This document shows positions 40,901-47,714 of a stretch of 64,000 nt of DNA, one piece after another. The DNA is from Caldilineaceae bacterium SB0661_bin_34 (GTDB lineage: Bacteria; Chloroflexota; Anaerolineae; Caldilineales; Caldilineaceae). Made by a program: the position numbers and the translations under genes. Under the pieces are notes generated by a model. That model did no database searches and was not told where the DNA came from. It saw nothing but the letters and a program-made list of their open reading frames with translations. Each line of letters starts with the position of its first letter. Position 1 is the stretch's first letter. The stretch spans positions 1 to 64,000 of the forward strand of contig VXMJ01000073.1 in assembly GCA_009841145.1 (NCBI GenBank), in the 5' to 3' direction.

Positions 40901-41013
40901 CGTGTTCATTCTGTGGCAGGTACAAGATAGGGGCTAATGGCTGGAAATGCCAAACTTTGCATGTTGTTGTTCCACAATGACATGGCGGGTATAAGGGGGA
41001 ACAGCGTACGAAG

Positions 41014-41463
41014 TTATGAATGATGTTTGTTTCGTGTCAACCAAAGGGTTCTCCAGTTTCTTTTGCCCAGTCTTTTTTTAATCCACTCAAGTTTTTGGTA
41101 CGGCTTGCAACGATCTAAATACCCTTCTTTGCTTATGATTGTTATGCCAGAGGCGGCATTTTGTGCCAGTTGAAATTCTCCACGTTTCCGAATAGACAGG
41201 TATTGTAATCTTGTTAAAATAAACATGTTCATTTCATGTTGATATGGATTCGCTATAGCATCAAATTTAGCACTGCTCTTTTCGTCGTCTGAAATATTGG
41301 AAATATCATGGACATAGTTATTGATCAATTTGGCAAGATATGAAATTTGTTGTTGTTCTCGTACTGTGTCACGAATCCAAAAATATAAACCAACGATTAA
41401 TGATGTGGAGATTGTTGCAGATACACCAATAACAACACCTTGAATTACATTCGACCAGTCCAT
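41014..41463 (-). CDS. Small membrane-anchored protein of unknown function
   Basis: A 149-aa protein with one N-terminal membrane helix (VIQGVVIGVSATISTSLIVG) and a charged, mostly helical cytoplasmic tail (VREQQQISYLAKLINNYVHD, then KRGEFQLAQNAASG). No domain recognised. ATG 41463. It is the first gene inside the 3.85-kb element, with the AT-rich codon use of that block. The topology resembles small phage or plasmid membrane proteins, but nothing more specific can be said. Confidence 0.55.
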   Translation of the reverse strand: MDWSNVIQGVVIGVSATISTSLIVGLYFWIRDTVREQQQISYLAKLINNYVHDISNISDDEKSSAKFDAIANPYQHEMNMFILTRLQYLSIRKRGEFQLAQNAASGITIISKEGYLDRCKPYQKLEWIKKRLGKRNWRTLWLTRNKHHS

Positions 41464-41716
41464 TGTTGTTTACCCTTATCAGTTGAAGTTTATAAAGCTT
41501 TGCACAATGGCTTAGGATACCATGAGAGACGGCTGTGCGGAAAGGAGTGATTGACACCACATGGCATAGGGGAGGCAGGGCTTCGGGTTCAATAACGGCG
41601 TCTGCAGTAGGATTGGCACTCACGTTAGCGCTAATACGGTGCTTCATATGCTTATCCTTGATTCTGTTTTGGATGTAGTCTGGTAAAATATCAATCCTGC
41701 CTTTGGCCCCGGAGTC

Positions 41717-41744
41717 TTGACTCCCCCATGCCATGCGGTATACT
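41717..41744 (+). promoter_or_regulatory. Sigma-70-type promoter
   Basis: TTGACT (41717-41722) and TATACT (41739-41744) are separated by 16 bases, about 40 bases upstream of the exonuclease start at 41783, which has a GGAG ribosome-binding site. It is the best promoter match I see in the window and lies inside the mobile element. Confidence 0.6.
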
Positions 41745-41782
41745 GGAGTATAACACAACATAGAAATTTTCGGAGCGAACCC

Positions 41783-42018
41783 ATGAACTTGACATTCAAG
41801 GCAATCGATATAGAAACAGCCAATGCCGACAGGTCAAGCATTTGTCAGATAGGTATCGTGAACGTAGTCAATGGTGTTGTTGTGAGCGCATGGCAATCAC
41901 TGATCAATCCCGAATGCCACTTTGATTCGTTCAATACAAGACTTCATGGCATTGATGAACAGACTGTGCAACACTCTCCAACTCTGACTGAAATACATGA
42001 TGAAATCCGGCAAATTTT
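41783..42018 (+). pseudogene. DEDDh 3'-5' exonuclease, truncated by IS1595 sequence
   Basis: Starting at ATG 41783 the frame reads FKAIDIETANADRSSICQIG, the ExoI motif (DxE) of DnaQ-like exonucleases, and continues through INPECHFDSFNTRLHGIDEQ and VQHSPTLTEIHDEIRQIL, where family members carry the helix before ExoII. It then runs directly into IS1595 transposase codons. The ExoII and ExoIII motifs are lost, so no nuclease activity is expected. Confidence 0.75.
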
Positions 42019-42339
42019 GTGTCGAAGGATGCGATGCTCATGACGGATGGCTTGGCTGCCTACGGTACGATGAGTTGGTACTTTGCCGAGCATGGCGTTG
42101 TGGATCATGATGATGAGTTTGTGTCCAGCGAGGACAGTACCATCCATACCAACACCATCGAGAGTTTCTGGCGGCGGCTAAAAGGCCAGTGGTACGGGAC
42201 GCATACACAGTACAGTCCACAGTACGCCAATGCCTATGCAACGGAGTTGTGCTACAAGCACAATCATCGGGACGACAAGGACCAGTTTGGAGATTTCATT
42301 GAGAAGGCGGCCAAGCCCAAGTCGCGGTTGACACGCTAA
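42019..42339 (+). pseudogene. IS1595-family transposase C-terminal fragment
   Basis: About 106 residues with MTDGLAAYGTMSWYFAEHGV, IHTNTIESFWRRLKGQWYGT and YANAYATELCYKHNHRDDKD, the second Asp and final Glu region of IS1595 DDE transposases (HTNxxESFW). The N-terminal zinc ribbon and first Asp are missing. It follows the exonuclease fragment without a gap, so a deletion joined them. A second, separate IS1595-type remnant is at 47715-48646. Confidence 0.8.
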
Positions 42340-42380
42340 CGAGGGCTGTGGTATACACTTGACAAGGGGTTGAGCAGTTG

Positions 42381-42477
42381 TACAGACGGTGCGACTTGAA
42401 CCCACAAGGGCTGCTCGGTTGATGGATCAGACCGCCGTATCCAACTACGGTGCGTATGCCTGTTCCGCCACGCCTGC
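42381..42477 (-). tRNA. Type II tRNA-like sequence with abnormal anticodon loop
   Basis: Read on the minus strand, GCAGGCG (5') pairs with CGTCTGT (3') over 7 bp with two G-U pairs. The D-arm is GCGGAACAGGCATACGC. A long variable arm CGGT...ACCG resembles tRNA-Leu/Ser, and the T-arm has the canonical loop TTCAAGT with one mismatched stem pair. The anticodon arm CCGTAGTTGGATACGG closes either a 6-base loop or, with a 4-bp stem, an 8-base loop, not 7. CCA is not encoded. It may be a degenerate element-borne tRNA, or a non-canonical decoder. Confidence 0.45.
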
Positions 42478-42622
42478 ACATGACTGGATTATACCAGTTG
42501 GCCTGACCCGCTGTATTGCCCTGTTGAGGGTGAATCAATGAAGCAGGCTTTTGCAGTTAGCCCTGGTCGCTGCCAACACCTGTCCGTGTATGAATGTTGT
42601 TCAACGCAACGGAAGCACCGTG

Positions 42623-43306
42623 TCAGTCAAAGCACAGTGCTTCCATTGTGTCGGCGGACGCTTGCATGAATTCAACTGCCTTGTCCAACCTTTCCCCTCC
42701 GGTTTCTAGCCAGTGGGGTTGTTTCCATATAACATATTGTTCAAAGGCTTGTGCTGCTCGTACATGCCAAAGGATTGAATTCAACAGGTGGTCGTACACT
42801 TCCTTGAATTCGGAAGGTGGAGTCATTGCAAACGTGTCGATGTAAATGTTTTTTATGTCATTGAGAACATCGTTGTTTGCATCCGAATCAACAAGATTCT
42901 GTAGCCACAATTCAGTCCTGTCTCCAATCTCAAGTACTTCATCTATGAATTGAATTGCCTTTCGTGATTGGCAAAACTGATTGAATGATTGCACTGTGGC
43001 GGTCGAGGTTGGCAGTGGAATTGGAGTAGGCGTAACCGTAGCCGGAGTCTTTGGTGTGCTGGTTGGTGTATTCGTTGGAGTTGATATTGGTTTTTGTGCA
43101 GGAAAGGGTGTTGGAGTATTGGTCGGCAGCGCAGTATGACTTACGATGGGTGTGAATGTGGGTACGGGTTTAGGCGCCTGTGGTATTGACTCCGTATGTG
43201 TAACCGCTGATATTTCAGGGGGTTGTAGATACAGGTTCAATAAAACAACAAGCAATATGATACAGATAACGGCAACAACGATTGAGATCCATGTCAGTGC
43301 TTTAAT
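42623..43306 (-). CDS. Membrane-anchored protein with Thr/Pro-rich stalk
   Basis: The obvious frame starts with a TTG at 43255. However, the reading frame continues upstream through a complete membrane helix (LTWISIVVAVICIILLVVLL) to an ATT at 43306 preceded by AGGGGG, so I extend it to ~227 aa. After the helix comes a Thr/Pro stalk (about residues 50-95, TNTPTPFPAQKP and similar), then a ~120-aa helical extracellular domain ending EFMQASADTMEALCFD. No family recognised. It sits in the mobile element, convergent with the truncated exonuclease. The start codon is uncertain. Confidence 0.5.
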   Translation of the reverse strand: MKALTWISIVVAVICIILLVVLLNLYLQPPEISAVTHTESIPQAPKPVPTFTPIVSHTALPTNTPTPFPAQKPISTPTNTPTSTPKTPATVTPTPIPLPTSTATVQSFNQFCQSRKAIQFIDEVLEIGDRTELWLQNLVDSDANNDVLNDIKNIYIDTFAMTPPSEFKEVYDHLLNSILWHVRAAQAFEQYVIWKQPHWLETGGERLDKAVEFMQASADTMEALCFD

Positions 43307-43310
43307 GACA

Positions 43311-43434
43311 AGCCCCCTTGTGGTAAGGATGATGCATTACCACACACATGAATCCGTTTAGCCAGCAAGGGGGCACGGATCACGCACCATCTGACTGGCC
43401 AAGGCGGACTCCGCCCGGATTCATATGTGTGGTA
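43311..43434. ncRNA. Structured intergenic segment, possible RNA or recombination site
   Basis: Three nested or adjacent inverted repeats lie within 124 bases: TACCACACACATGAATCCG (43338-43356) with CGGATTCATATGTGTGGTA (43416-43434), one mismatch; GCCCCCTTG (43312-43320) with CAAGGGGGC (43366-43374); and the hairpin GGCGG-ACT-CCGCC (43404-43416). The segment lies between the two tRNA-like sequences of the mobile element. It could be a structured RNA, a replication or recombination site, or a decayed small element. Confidence 0.35.
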
Positions 43435-43521
43435 GAGAAACCATACCACAGGTCCAAGGGGCTTGTCAATGTCGTAGAAACGACTGGTGTAAAGGGAATA
43501 TGTATAATAGTAAAAACAAAA

Positions 43522-43592
43522 CACTGGAGCGGACTTGAACCCACGATCCCTAGCCTGTAAAACTAGGTGGCTTACCACTTGCCTGTCCAGTA
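43522..43592 (-). tRNA. tRNA-like sequence, possibly tRNA-Val(TAC)-like
   Basis: On the minus strand TACTGGA pairs with TCCAGTG (7 bp). The D-arm is GGC-AAGTGGTAA-GCC. The anticodon arm CCTAGTTTTACAGGCTAGG folds with a T-G closing pair into a 7-base loop TTTACAG, placing TAC as anticodon. The T-arm GTGGGTTCAAGTCCGC lacks one base compared with a standard stem-loop, and CCA is not encoded. It may therefore be a degenerate tRNA. It resembles the other tRNA-like sequence 1 kb away in its T-loop. Confidence 0.45.
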
Positions 43593-43619
43593 TGTGTTAA
43601 AATATACAGTTGTCAATAA

Positions 43620-43916
43620 ATGACGGACGTGGAAATGTACAAGGTATTGTTGAATGACATTAGGGATGATTGCAAAAGGCAGTCCATGCAACTTGGTGTA
43701 ACACTGATTGACTACCTGTTCAAGAACGAAGCGATGTTGGACAAATTACATTTTCCCTTTGTCCATGATCAGTTTGAGAAACTGATGGAGGTTCTTCCCC
43801 GCAAGTACCTGAATGACATTCGTGAAATGCAAAGGTTGTACAGTGAGGAAGGATTCACATTGAGGGAAATCATGGACATGCCGATCCTGCCGATTCACAA
43901 GAAGTCGGTCGGATAG
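43620..43916 (+). CDS. Small helical protein, unknown
   Basis: A 98-aa soluble protein (MTDVEMYKVLLNDIRDDC start, then KRQSMQLGVTLIDYLFKN) predicted mostly helical with no signal, membrane helix or cysteine cluster. I recognise no domain. It is the first of three consecutive plus-strand small genes in the right half of the mobile element. A TATAAT at 43503-43508 could be its -10 box, though no matching -35 is clear. Confidence 0.5.
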   Translation: MTDVEMYKVLLNDIRDDCKRQSMQLGVTLIDYLFKNEAMLDKLHFPFVHDQFEKLMEVLPRKYLNDIREMQRLYSEEGFTLREIMDMPILPIHKKSVG

Positions 43917-44030
43917 GAAACAGGGAGGGTGCAGTGCTACAGAGAATAAACAGGAACGTGCTCAATGTAGCGGTTTGACGACGGTTGACAGCTGTGATAC
44001 GATGATGGTGTCTTGAAACACAAGAGGTGA

Positions 44031-44261
44031 ATGATGAACAGTGAACAGGTATACAGCGTCGAAGTAAAAGGTGGTAGGATCATACGTCTTACCAATCCGG
44101 ACAATCAAAATCAAATCACATATGGTTTGGATCAAGTGTCCAGCGTTGAAACCAGTGGCAAGGAACTTGTGCAAATCAGTTTCAAGGATGGAAAGACGTA
44201 TCATGTGTCAGGGGAAGATAGAGTAACATTTTGGTTGAACAAGAAGAAGAAAGAGAGGTAA
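44031..44261 (+). CDS. Small beta-rich protein, unknown
   Basis: A 76-aa protein alternating short strands (VYSVEVKGGRIIRLT, QITYGLDQVSSVE, LVQISFKDGKTYHV) and ending with a basic KKKKER tail. This looks like a small beta-barrel or PH-like fold; no family recognised. AAGAGGTG lies just before the start. It ends 4 bases before the next gene, so the two are co-transcribed. Confidence 0.55.
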   Translation: MMNSEQVYSVEVKGGRIIRLTNPDNQNQITYGLDQVSSVETSGKELVQISFKDGKTYHVSGEDRVTFWLNKKKKER

Positions 44262-44265
44262 AGCA

Positions 44266-44631
44266 GTGGCAATTCAACCTGTCAAGAATGGTAAACGGCA
44301 TCAATGTTCTGTACAGAAAAAGCCTTCCAGTGTTACAAGGGAGGAGTTTGATGAACTTACAAGTACTGTTTACAGTGTGGCGCGTATTGCTGTTGACAAC
44401 AGGCATATGATTAATGGTGTACAAAATGCTTTGGTGGCATTGGACGAAGAAGATGCTCGATTGAAACAAAAGATGTTTGAGATCGATCAAGGCATGGAAA
44501 ACAATCGGAGGATTATCAAGGAGGCGATTAAAAGTATCGGTGATCGAATGAGTGAAAGCGAACAACTTGTAGGTGAATTGGTTGAACGCTTGGGTATCAA
44601 GGATGTATCACTTGATGAGCAACAACCATGA
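44266..44631 (+). CDS. Coiled-coil protein, unknown
   Basis: A 121-aa protein. A basic N-terminus (KNGKRHQCSVQKKPSSV) is followed by a long heptad-like helix from about residue 25 to 115, with stretches such as NALVALDEEDARLKQKMFEI and MSESEQLVGELVERLGI. It is probably an oligomeric coiled coil. The start is GTG at 44266, 4 bases after the preceding gene, with AGAGAGG upstream. A strong terminator follows at 44657, closing the element's small-gene operon. Confidence 0.55.
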   Translation: MAIQPVKNGKRHQCSVQKKPSSVTREEFDELTSTVYSVARIAVDNRHMINGVQNALVALDEEDARLKQKMFEIDQGMENNRRIIKEAIKSIGDRMSESEQLVGELVERLGIKDVSLDEQQP

Positions 44632-44656
44632 GCACACTAAGCCAGAAGCATACAGA

Positions 44657-44679
44657 CAGGCCCCACACGGGGCCTGTTT
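44657..44679 (+). terminator. Rho-independent terminator
   Basis: CAGGCCCC (44657-44664), loop ACAC, GGGGCCTG (44669-44676), then TTT. Perfect 8-bp GC-rich stem 25 bases after the coiled-coil gene. Confidence 0.8.
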
Positions 44680-44824
44680 GCTTCATGGCTACTTTGAGGC
44701 TAGGACATGCAACAACGCCCGCATTTGGACTGCAAGGAGCCTTTAGCCCCTATCTTGTACCTGCCCATTCTGTGTCGTGACATCCAGCCCAATGTGGACA
44801 TCCGGCAAGAGCGGATTTCGGTCG

Positions 44825-44957
44825 CAGCTCTCGGCGGCCGAAGAAGGGCGCGTAGCGTGCCTAGTAGGCCCGCAGCCGTCCGCGCACCGAGGCGATGTCG
44901 GCGCGGCTCAGGGAGACGTCGGGCAGGGACACGGGGGTGGTGGCCAGGGTCATGGCG
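44825..44957 (-). pseudogene. IS701-like transposase N-terminal remnant
   Basis: The minus strand reads VSLSRADIASVRGRLRAY, stop, ARYAPFFGRRE, the N-terminal block of many IS701-family transposases. An in-frame stop and loss of everything downstream make it dead. It is a different member from the truncated one at 11796-12867. The 3.85-kb element lies immediately beside it. The surrounding 44774-45119 holds nothing else I can support. Confidence 0.55.
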
Positions 44958-45128
44958 AGGTGGGGACTGAGGGAATCCAAACACCGGGATTCTACCTCTC
45001 AATGTTTCGTTGCACTACTAGGATCCATAGGACCAACTAAACACCGATCCTGCGCACCATCGTGGTTGCCAATGTCATCCGAAACCTATTTTTCCGCAGC
45101 ATCTAGGGTCAAAATAGGAGTTCAATGC

Positions 45129-46201
45129 GGCACTGTTTCAATCTCGTTGATTTTGGTTGCAGGCTGTTATATGCCTATTTTCTGTACCAGTGGGTTCCGT
45201 GTGTCGCTTCAGGCCATACTGCGGGCTATCAGGCGCACGAAGCCCCTGCCTCGGTCTTCAGTCCCGGTGTCAGGCGGGTCCAGGGCTTGAAGCTGCCAAA
45301 CCAACTCTCCAACCGGGTGGTGGAGGCGGGCACCTTGGGGTTCCCTTGGCTGCATACCAAGTTGTGCCGGCGTTCCAAGAGGTGCCACAACTGCTTCTGC
45401 ACCTCCTGCTGCAGACCTACACAGCCCTGCATCACCGCCCCCTAGAGTGCCAGCAGGACTGGTCCCGCCTCCAGCGGTCGTTCTCGGGCCGGGCGTTGCA
45501 GGATCGGCAGCAGGACCCGGTCCAGGTGGGGCAGGTCGTCTTCGTCGATACCCCGGATATGCCGTCTCACGGTGCGCTGCATGTGCACGGCGCACTGTTG
45601 CCGGTCCAGATCCGCTGTCTCCAGAGCCGGGCGTAGACCGGGTCGTCGTCGGTCGTAGCTCCCTGTATCTTGCGCGCGGCCAGGAACGTGAACTGTCGAA
45701 GCCGGGACCACTCAGGCGCAGGTCCAGCCGTTCGCCCTTGGGGTCCAGGACCACCGCCATCGGGCGCTTGACGCCCTCGATGAACAGCCAGGTCTCGTCC
45801 ACCTTGACCGAGGTGGGATAGATCCCGGAAACTGACACAGTGCCCGTACAGGTCGGTCACCAGAGCCCGGAAAGTCTGCGGCTGTTGGCGGAAGGTTACG
45901 TCGGGCGGCAGGGACGAGGCGCTACCCAGGTAGGCCTTGTACGGCCAGCGCTGGACGCACAGGCGGCCGAGGACGACCAGATCGCGGGCATAGGTGCCGT
46001 TGCGCCGCCAGGCACAGGCCCCGTAATGACGGCAGGTGCCCGGGTCGTCGGGCAATGCACGTTGGCGTTCGGGATGGGCAGGCGCTAGGATGAAGTCCTC
46101 CACACCGAGGGGCCCTCTTTGGTTGTCACGACAACACTATTGTAGGGAGCCCTCATCGTGTGCGCGTCCAGAACCAACATCAACGAGATTGAAACAGTGC
46201 C
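45129..46201 (-). mobile_element. IS with GGCACTGTTTCA ends, transposase decayed (copy 1)
   Basis: GGCACTGTTTCAATCTCGTT starts at 45129 and its reverse complement ends at 46201. The nonamer GTTCAATGC flanks both sides (45120-45128, 46202-46210), a perfect target duplication. The minus strand carries a broken DDE transposase: a decayed zinc-ribbon-like CRHYGACAWRRNGTYARDLV, then SVKVDETWLFIEGVKRPMAV, and in another frame TRLESWFGSFKPWTRLTPGL with LKTEAG. The ends resemble IS6-family ends (GGCACTGTTGCA) and target duplications of about 8 bp fit that family, but assignment is uncertain. Frameshifts and stops make it inactive. Confidence 0.8.
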
Positions 46202-46273
46202 GTTCAATGCCCGTCTGCAATGCAAAGGCCTGTGATAAAATTACAGTACTGACTGTTTTTATGGGGATGTTAG

Positions 46274-47072: not shown

Positions 47073-47094
47073 GAGGGGATTACCGGCACTGTTT

Positions 47095-47639
47095 CACTTT
47101 CGTTGAAAACGGTTCAGGCCCGGAACAAGACGAGAGGCCCTGTACCCTTGGTTTGACGTCAATCAACCAAGCAAGGATCTCTCACCATGTCTTTCACGGT
47201 AGTCCCTGAAGAGCCCGCGCGTCAACTCGCGGATCCCGGTTCGCCCGAGGCGTGTCCCCATTGCGGCCGGCGCACCTTTTGGCGCAACGGCTGCTACGAG
47301 CGCCATCTGCTGCTGCTGGTCTGCTGCGAGTGGGCCCACCAGGGCGTGGTCCGGCTGTCGCCGCCCGTGTTGGCCCTGGTGGAGCATGTCATGGACCGCT
47401 GGAACGACCTCGTCCGCTGTGTGCGCGACCCCGCCATCCCCTCCAGCACGAACGGCTGGTTTGGACGCTTCAAGCCCCGGGCGCGGCTGGCCCGCGGCCT
47501 GAAGACACCGCAGGGCGCACAGGCCTTCCTGCACCTGCTGGCCGGAAACCTGGCTTGAAACCGGCCGGCCCACCAGGACCGGGCCCAAGGAGCCGTTCAT
47601 GTCCAACTGAACCGTTTTCAACGAAAGTGAAACAGTGCC
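47095..47639 (+). mobile_element. Internally deleted IS, MITE-like (copy 2)
   Basis: GGCACTGTTTCACTTTCGTT at 47095 and its reverse complement ending at 47639 are flanked by GGATTACC on both sides (47087-47094, 47640-47647). The inside reads as a 123-aa frame from 47187: the transposase N-terminal zinc site CPHCGRRTFWRNGCYERH is joined in frame to the C-terminal end WFGRFKPRARLARGLKT. The catalytic centre is deleted, giving a short non-autonomous derivative. Confidence 0.85.
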
Positions 47640-47714
47640 GGATTACCAAGATAACTCTACAAATGGCGCTGGTTTAGGTAGACTCATCTCATCATTCAAC
47701 GACGGGGGTGGGTC

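Follow-up and report, generated by a model that had tools for sequence, protein, structure and literature searches.

Two sequences that derive from tRNAs, termed A and B here, lie within a mobile element in the genome of Caldilineaceae bacterium SB0661_bin_34. The window that we analyzed comprises 64,000 nucleotides (positions 1 to 64000 of contig C100), and the genome amounts to 4.34 Mb in 102 contigs. Our preferred reading, which we give a probability of roughly 60%, is that a foreign element brought in both sequences as passenger tRNA genes, A being a pseudogene and B a borderline case. This AT-rich mobile element would have had phage or plasmid character; the carrier of A and B is a 3.85-kb transposon without an intact transposase, inserted after the species had split from its sisters. 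A is a tRNA-Leu(UAG)-type gene that lost an anticodon base and suffered more damage in the T-stem and the variable arm. Normal decoding by A would no longer be possible, and a pseudogene is its most likely state. B has a regular anticodon loop and would represent a diverged tRNA of the Val(UAC) kind, for which transcription and charging are expected to be weak at best.

The limits of the element were set by its ends, a target-site duplication, an empty site in sister genomes and its base composition (GC content of 0.454 versus 0.595 for the window). The features of the insertion are as follows.

40915 to 44765, no strand: transposon-like element with both tRNA-derived sequences, 3,851 bp
40915 to 40942, plus strand: left terminal inverted repeat, complementary to the right end at 27 of 28 positions
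44738 to 44765, minus strand: right terminal inverted repeat, 28 bp, pairing with the left end at 27 of 28 positions
40907 to 40914, no strand: left copy of the target-site duplication, CATTCTGT, 8 bp
44766 to 44773, no strand: right copy of the target-site duplication, CATTCTGT, an exact 8-bp match to the left copy

The sister genomes G002 and G003 carry a single copy of the target site, which reads TATTCTGT in G002 and CATTCCGT in G003. In G002, the left flank (up to window position 40915) meets the right flank (from 44767) with an overlap of 8 bp, and the junction in G003 is the same to within one base. When the joined flanks were aligned directly to both genomes, the alignments ran unbroken across the site, which is therefore empty in both sisters; flank identity to the window was 84% in G002 and about 92% in G003. 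The corresponding contig of G001 stops short of the insertion site. With inverted ends, a target duplication and an empty site, the element is a genuine and fairly recent insertion that postdates the split from G002 and G003, and the claim of the earlier note that A and B lie within a mobile element was borne out. Both sisters retain a clean single site, which makes a loss from the two of them less likely. The element is present as a single copy in its own genome. Just to its right, about 200 bp (44822 to 45025) are repeated at 84 to 92% in G001 and G002. They are followed by a repeat with 31-bp inverted ends (45128 to 46202; 97%), probably an IS, that is found at many places in the own genome and in three sister species, and by a 559-bp unit (47083 to 47641) whose perfect 35-bp inverted ends resemble those of this repeat.

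Besides A and B, the element contains the following cargo.

41014 to 41463, minus strand: 149-aa protein, judged by eye to have an N-terminal membrane anchor; without a family hit over the cutoff
41783 to 42022, plus strand: N-terminal part of a DnaQ-like 3′-5′ exonuclease (PF00929, E value of 2.4e-8; phrog_192, E value of 2.4e-15)
42019 to 42339, plus strand: C-terminal fragment of an IS1595-type transposase (PF12762, E value of 3.3e-16, profile positions 75 to 153 of 153)
42623 to 43255, minus strand: 210-aa protein whose linker is rich in Thr and Pro; without a family hit over the cutoff
43306 to 43468, no strand: MITE-like insert, 163 bp, with inverted ends starting TGACAAGCCCC
43620 to 43916, plus strand: 98-aa orphan protein; no family above the cutoff
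44031 to 44261, plus strand: 76-aa orphan protein (ORF)
44266 to 44631, plus strand: 121-aa orphan protein; no family above the cutoff

The family scans covered four of the five small ORFs (149, 210, 98 and 121 aa). Both recognizable enzymes are truncated: the exonuclease gene is interrupted by the IS1595 fragment, which looks like a separate, truncated insertion within the element and has relatives in G001, G003, G026 and G031. A transposase of the element's own was not found, this C-terminal fragment being the only one inside. Classification of the element as a whole as an IS1595 transposon was rejected; at five loci with IS1595 relatives, no terminal inverted repeat like that of the element was seen beyond chance. 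A 59-bp stretch of the MITE-like insert is present at 78% in G003, and motifs like its ends (AAGCCCC) adjoin IS1595 transposases in related genomes. Nine relatives of the exonuclease fragment (43 to 52%) were found in viral contigs, and ARAGORN called one tRNA in total at these nine loci. A foreign origin of the element appears probable; its possible phage or plasmid character is suggested by two features, the base composition and the generic exonuclease.

Searches of phages, plasmids and viral contigs, of 61 relatives and of 396 class and 400 phylum genomes, groups that overlap, turned up no element with the tRNAs. The segment of 1.2 kb that holds the tRNAs had matches in three of the 61 genomes; for the whole element, matches came from 20 of the 396 class and 9 of the 400 phylum genomes. 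The own genome is included in each count. These whole-element searches scored two candidates per genome and could miss a diverged copy. By position, the matches corresponded to the Thr/Pro linker, to parts of IS1595 or of the MITE-like insert, to some short stretches elsewhere and, once, to an end of the element (48 bp, in G001); none in the class and phylum genomes covered A or B. Those to the 210-aa protein lie within its Thr/Pro linker. For the 98-aa protein, the 396 class genomes gave one weak match besides the protein itself, and searches of viral contigs, phages and plasmids gave no relative. DNA searches of phages and plasmids gave no match to the region. Five of six element queries were without a relative in a protein search of viral contigs, the exonuclease being the exception. 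Exact stretches of A and B were absent from the viral contigs, and against phages the two gave partial matches at an E value of 3 only. A match of 48 to 49 bp in G001 (C74, 5209 to 5257) is 80% like the right end of the element and stops at the element's last base; it suggests that a related element may exist there, at an E value of 0.008 that applies to one genome and is not significant across 396. The pattern of the terminal inverted repeats, with three mismatches allowed, occurred in 10 of the 396 class genomes, the own genome included. At the nine outside loci, no inverted partner above 19 of 28 was present, and we set these loci aside as chance matches; the one checked by ORF (L047) is an aldehyde-dehydrogenase coding sequence by eye. 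Across genome contigs, the same pattern had one match, in a Bacteroidia genome.

The tRNA-derived sequences and a promoter-like hexamer are located as follows.

42381 to 42477, minus strand: sequence A, tRNA-Leu homologue and likely pseudogene
42488 to 42493, minus strand: exact TATAAT hexamer that precedes A by 10 nt
43520 to 43593, minus strand: sequence B, low-scoring tRNA with the anticodon UAC

For A, we built a covariance model (R1) from 19 Leu tRNAs of the own genome and its relatives and searched 85,458 bases from ten sources. A scored 47.5 bits (E value of 2.7e-9), unchanged with filters off, and matched the model across positions 1 to 84, with a class II cloverleaf, a Leu-type D-arm, a T-loop and A73. 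The host's own four Leu tRNAs, which belonged to the training set, scored 78.5 to 101.4 bits in the same search. Since the other tRNAs, including B, reached 16.8 to 51.1 bits, the score of A by itself is no proof of Leu identity; it is the D-arm (GTGGCGGAA..GGCA.ACGC), A73 and the long variable region that jointly mark A as Leu-type, judged by sequence. In global alignments to the 46 host tRNAs, Leu(TAG) was the best partner of A with a score of 51.0, whereas 60 shuffles did not exceed 40.7. A had no RF00005 match in 10 kb (E value up to 5) or in the genome (E value up to 10), and ARAGORN at default settings missed it.

The anticodon loop of A, GTTGGA, consists of 6 bases on a 5-bp stem (CCGTA/TACGG). 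Alignment to the Leu tRNAs gave U-U-gap-G-G-A for UUAGGA, i.e., a one-base deletion in the anticodon, and the 7-base loop with a Leu anticodon is lost. The earlier note had allowed a loop of 6 or 8 bases. The 6-base loop held, while 8 bases are obtained only when an A-T pair of the stem is opened. The variable region is 29 nt long, in agreement with the long variable arm noted earlier, and has 18 inner variable-loop bases compared to 4 in R1. One T-stem pair is broken by a G-G mismatch. CCA is not encoded after A73, and the minimum-energy fold is no cloverleaf (-33.8 kcal/mol versus -20.7 kcal/mol for the cloverleaf without the variable stem). Two observations speak against A being a pseudogene: the Leu-type D-arm in the 5′ half, the T-loop and A73 are retained beyond what long neutral decay would leave, and the exact TATAAT is fittingly placed upstream. 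The hexamer is only suggestive, and a two-box promoter scan did not report a promoter at this position. LeuRS is not known to read the anticodon; hence, A could still be charged.

B was called tRNA-Val(tac) by ARAGORN and scored 31.1 bits with RF00005, above the cutoff of 29 bits (E value of 0.0025 in 10 kb and 2.5e-4 in the whole genome). At an E value of up to 10, RF00005 found 48 places in the whole genome: 46 tRNAs, which ARAGORN also called in the fetched stretches, B, and one place of 18.4 bits in a tmRNA called by ARAGORN. B was the lowest of the 47 places over the cutoff; the next reached 47.4 bits and the rest 49 to 80. This next-lowest place is an extra Arg-like tRNA elsewhere in the genome (G000, L053, C42:16741-16816), which ARAGORN draws with a 6-base loop and the anticodon 'cg'. 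It is flanked by a transposase-like ORF (by eye) and a TnpB-type gene, and a full-identity copy was present in 0 of 30 relatives. The E values of B (2.5e-4 in the whole genome) and A (2.7e-9) rule out a chance resemblance and confirm that both derive from tRNAs. Both also have the 7-bp acceptor stem described in the earlier note (with G-T pairs in A), the GG of the D-loop and the T-loop TTCAAGT.

B has a D-stem with one mismatch and a variable region of 5 nt. Its anticodon stem, CTAGT/GCTAG, is closed by a T-G pair (T31-G39), as the earlier note had said, and encloses the 7-base loop TTTACAG with U33 and the anticodon UAC. The same note had called this loop abnormal, which was wrong: it is an ordinary Val(UAC) loop that differs from that of the host tRNA, TTTACAC, at base 38 alone. 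Other parts of B are less regular. Position 8 is A (T in 43 of the 46 host tRNAs), and the T-arm can be read either as a 7-bp acceptor with the T-stem GTGGG/CCGCT and two mismatches or, following ARAGORN, as an 8-bp acceptor with a 5-bp T-stem and a 6-base T-loop. A73 is a tRNA-Val identity element, and the discriminator of B is T. The sequence of B does not single out an isotype: neither of the best-aligned host tRNAs (Ala, 35.2; Val, 34.2) outscores the best of 60 shuffles (36.7). The promoter scan of 42200 to 43800 gave four sites versus 2.1 expected by chance, one of which (10/12) overlaps the 5′ end of B; terminators were not found in this region. B, although weak, may still be usable. 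The broken anticodon of A, the T-stem mismatches in A and B and the low score of B together point to probable decay.

The host tRNAs include Val TAC, GAC and CAC as well as Leu TAG, CAG, TAA and CAA; thus, neither A nor B is needed. In six ORFs of the element, 17 of 54 Val codons are GTA, compared to 29 of 377 for 11 genes of the window (p of 4.7e-6); for CTA, the figures are 3 of 62 Leu codons compared to 17 of 497 (p of 0.48). The enrichment of GUA, the codon of B, argues against B as an unused passenger and is explained by general AT-richness. These counts fit AT-rich foreign DNA, with a possible use for B and none for A.

The alternative that we consider possible, albeit unlikely, is that B (perhaps also A) is a working cargo tRNA which supplies GUA decoding to the AT-rich element or its parent phage or plasmid or replaces a host tRNA cut by an anticodon nuclease, a role shown for phage tRNAs. 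B exceeds the Rfam cutoff with a regular UAC loop, GUA is enriched in the element, and phage tRNAs are known to rescue phages from tRNA-cutting defenses (PMC11555353) and to carry anticodon-loop changes (PMC10264068). However, CUA, the codon that an unbroken A would read, is not enriched, B has A at position 8 and a damaged T-stem, and the host already possesses a Val-UAC tRNA. Moreover, an element of 3.85 kb, with its five small ORFs plus one gene fragment, would hardly need tRNAs of its own. Far less probable is a specialized, non-decoding role of A as a tRNA-like RNA that folds, is charged and acts as a decoy for LeuRS, a tRNA nuclease or a toxin. The loss of an anticodon base with retention of the D-arm, T-loop and A73 would suit such a role, but a one-base deletion with a T-stem mismatch is equally expected from decay, no conserved copy was found, and the minimum-energy structure is not a cloverleaf. 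The decoy reading keeps some probability mainly because of the second extra tRNA with a 6-base loop, beside the TnpB-type gene; decay may by chance have produced both of these tRNAs within the same genome. We likewise give little credit to the wider proposal that the transposon keeps folded, perhaps charged, non-decoding tRNA cargo as decoys against tRNA-cutting or tRNA-binding systems.

Two further explanations have hardly any probability. The earlier note had mentioned frameshift-suppressor tRNAs. An 8-base loop can be drawn for A with one A-T pair opened, but the alignment to 19 Leu tRNAs revealed a deletion and no insertion, and the 7-base loop of B is normal, which makes this reading very improbable. 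An origin as remnants of integrase attachment sites is less probable still. tRNA genes are the integration sites of many elements; however, A and B are internal, full-length and far from identical to any host tRNA, the element terminates in inverted repeats flanked by an 8-bp duplication, and its empty site is not a tRNA gene. We retain the reading of A and B as passengers, which on current evidence are mostly a record of decay. A tRNA pair bounded by a transposon, together with an exact empty site, cleanly illustrates a route by which a chromosome acquires extra tRNA genes, and if the broken anticodon of A were conserved, it would indicate non-decoding tRNAs as cargo. Searches of the open PMC library for tRNAs on transposons or other elements, limited to these terms, listed no transposon-borne case.

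IS1595 and other transposon families make 8-bp target duplications. The element resembles them in its 8-bp duplication, its inverted ends starting with GG and its passenger genes and differs in that no transposase matching its ends was found. An altered loop size is known from the yeast mitochondrial tRNA-Thr-UAG, which has an 8-nt anticodon loop (PMC7609411). A likewise departs from the 7-base loop, but with 6 bases and further damage, and any use of A would be hypothetical. tRNA genes are common on phages and plasmids. tRNA arrays are known from mycobacteriophages and plasmids (PMC5966550), and T5-like phages carry tRNAs with a role against tRNA-cutting defense (PMC11555353). Like these genes, A and B are foreign-type tRNAs on a mobile element that duplicate host isoacceptors; unlike the arrays, there are only two of them, one with a broken anticodon, and the carrier is a small transposon in which no phage or plasmid backbone was found. 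The defense idea of the earlier note has a precedent in phage tRNAs whose mutated anticodon loops let them escape anticodon nucleases (PMC10264068, with PMC11555353). A resembles them as an element-borne tRNA with an altered anticodon-loop region; the phage mutations, however, are predicted to block cleavage in tRNAs presumed to work, whereas A has lost an anticodon base.
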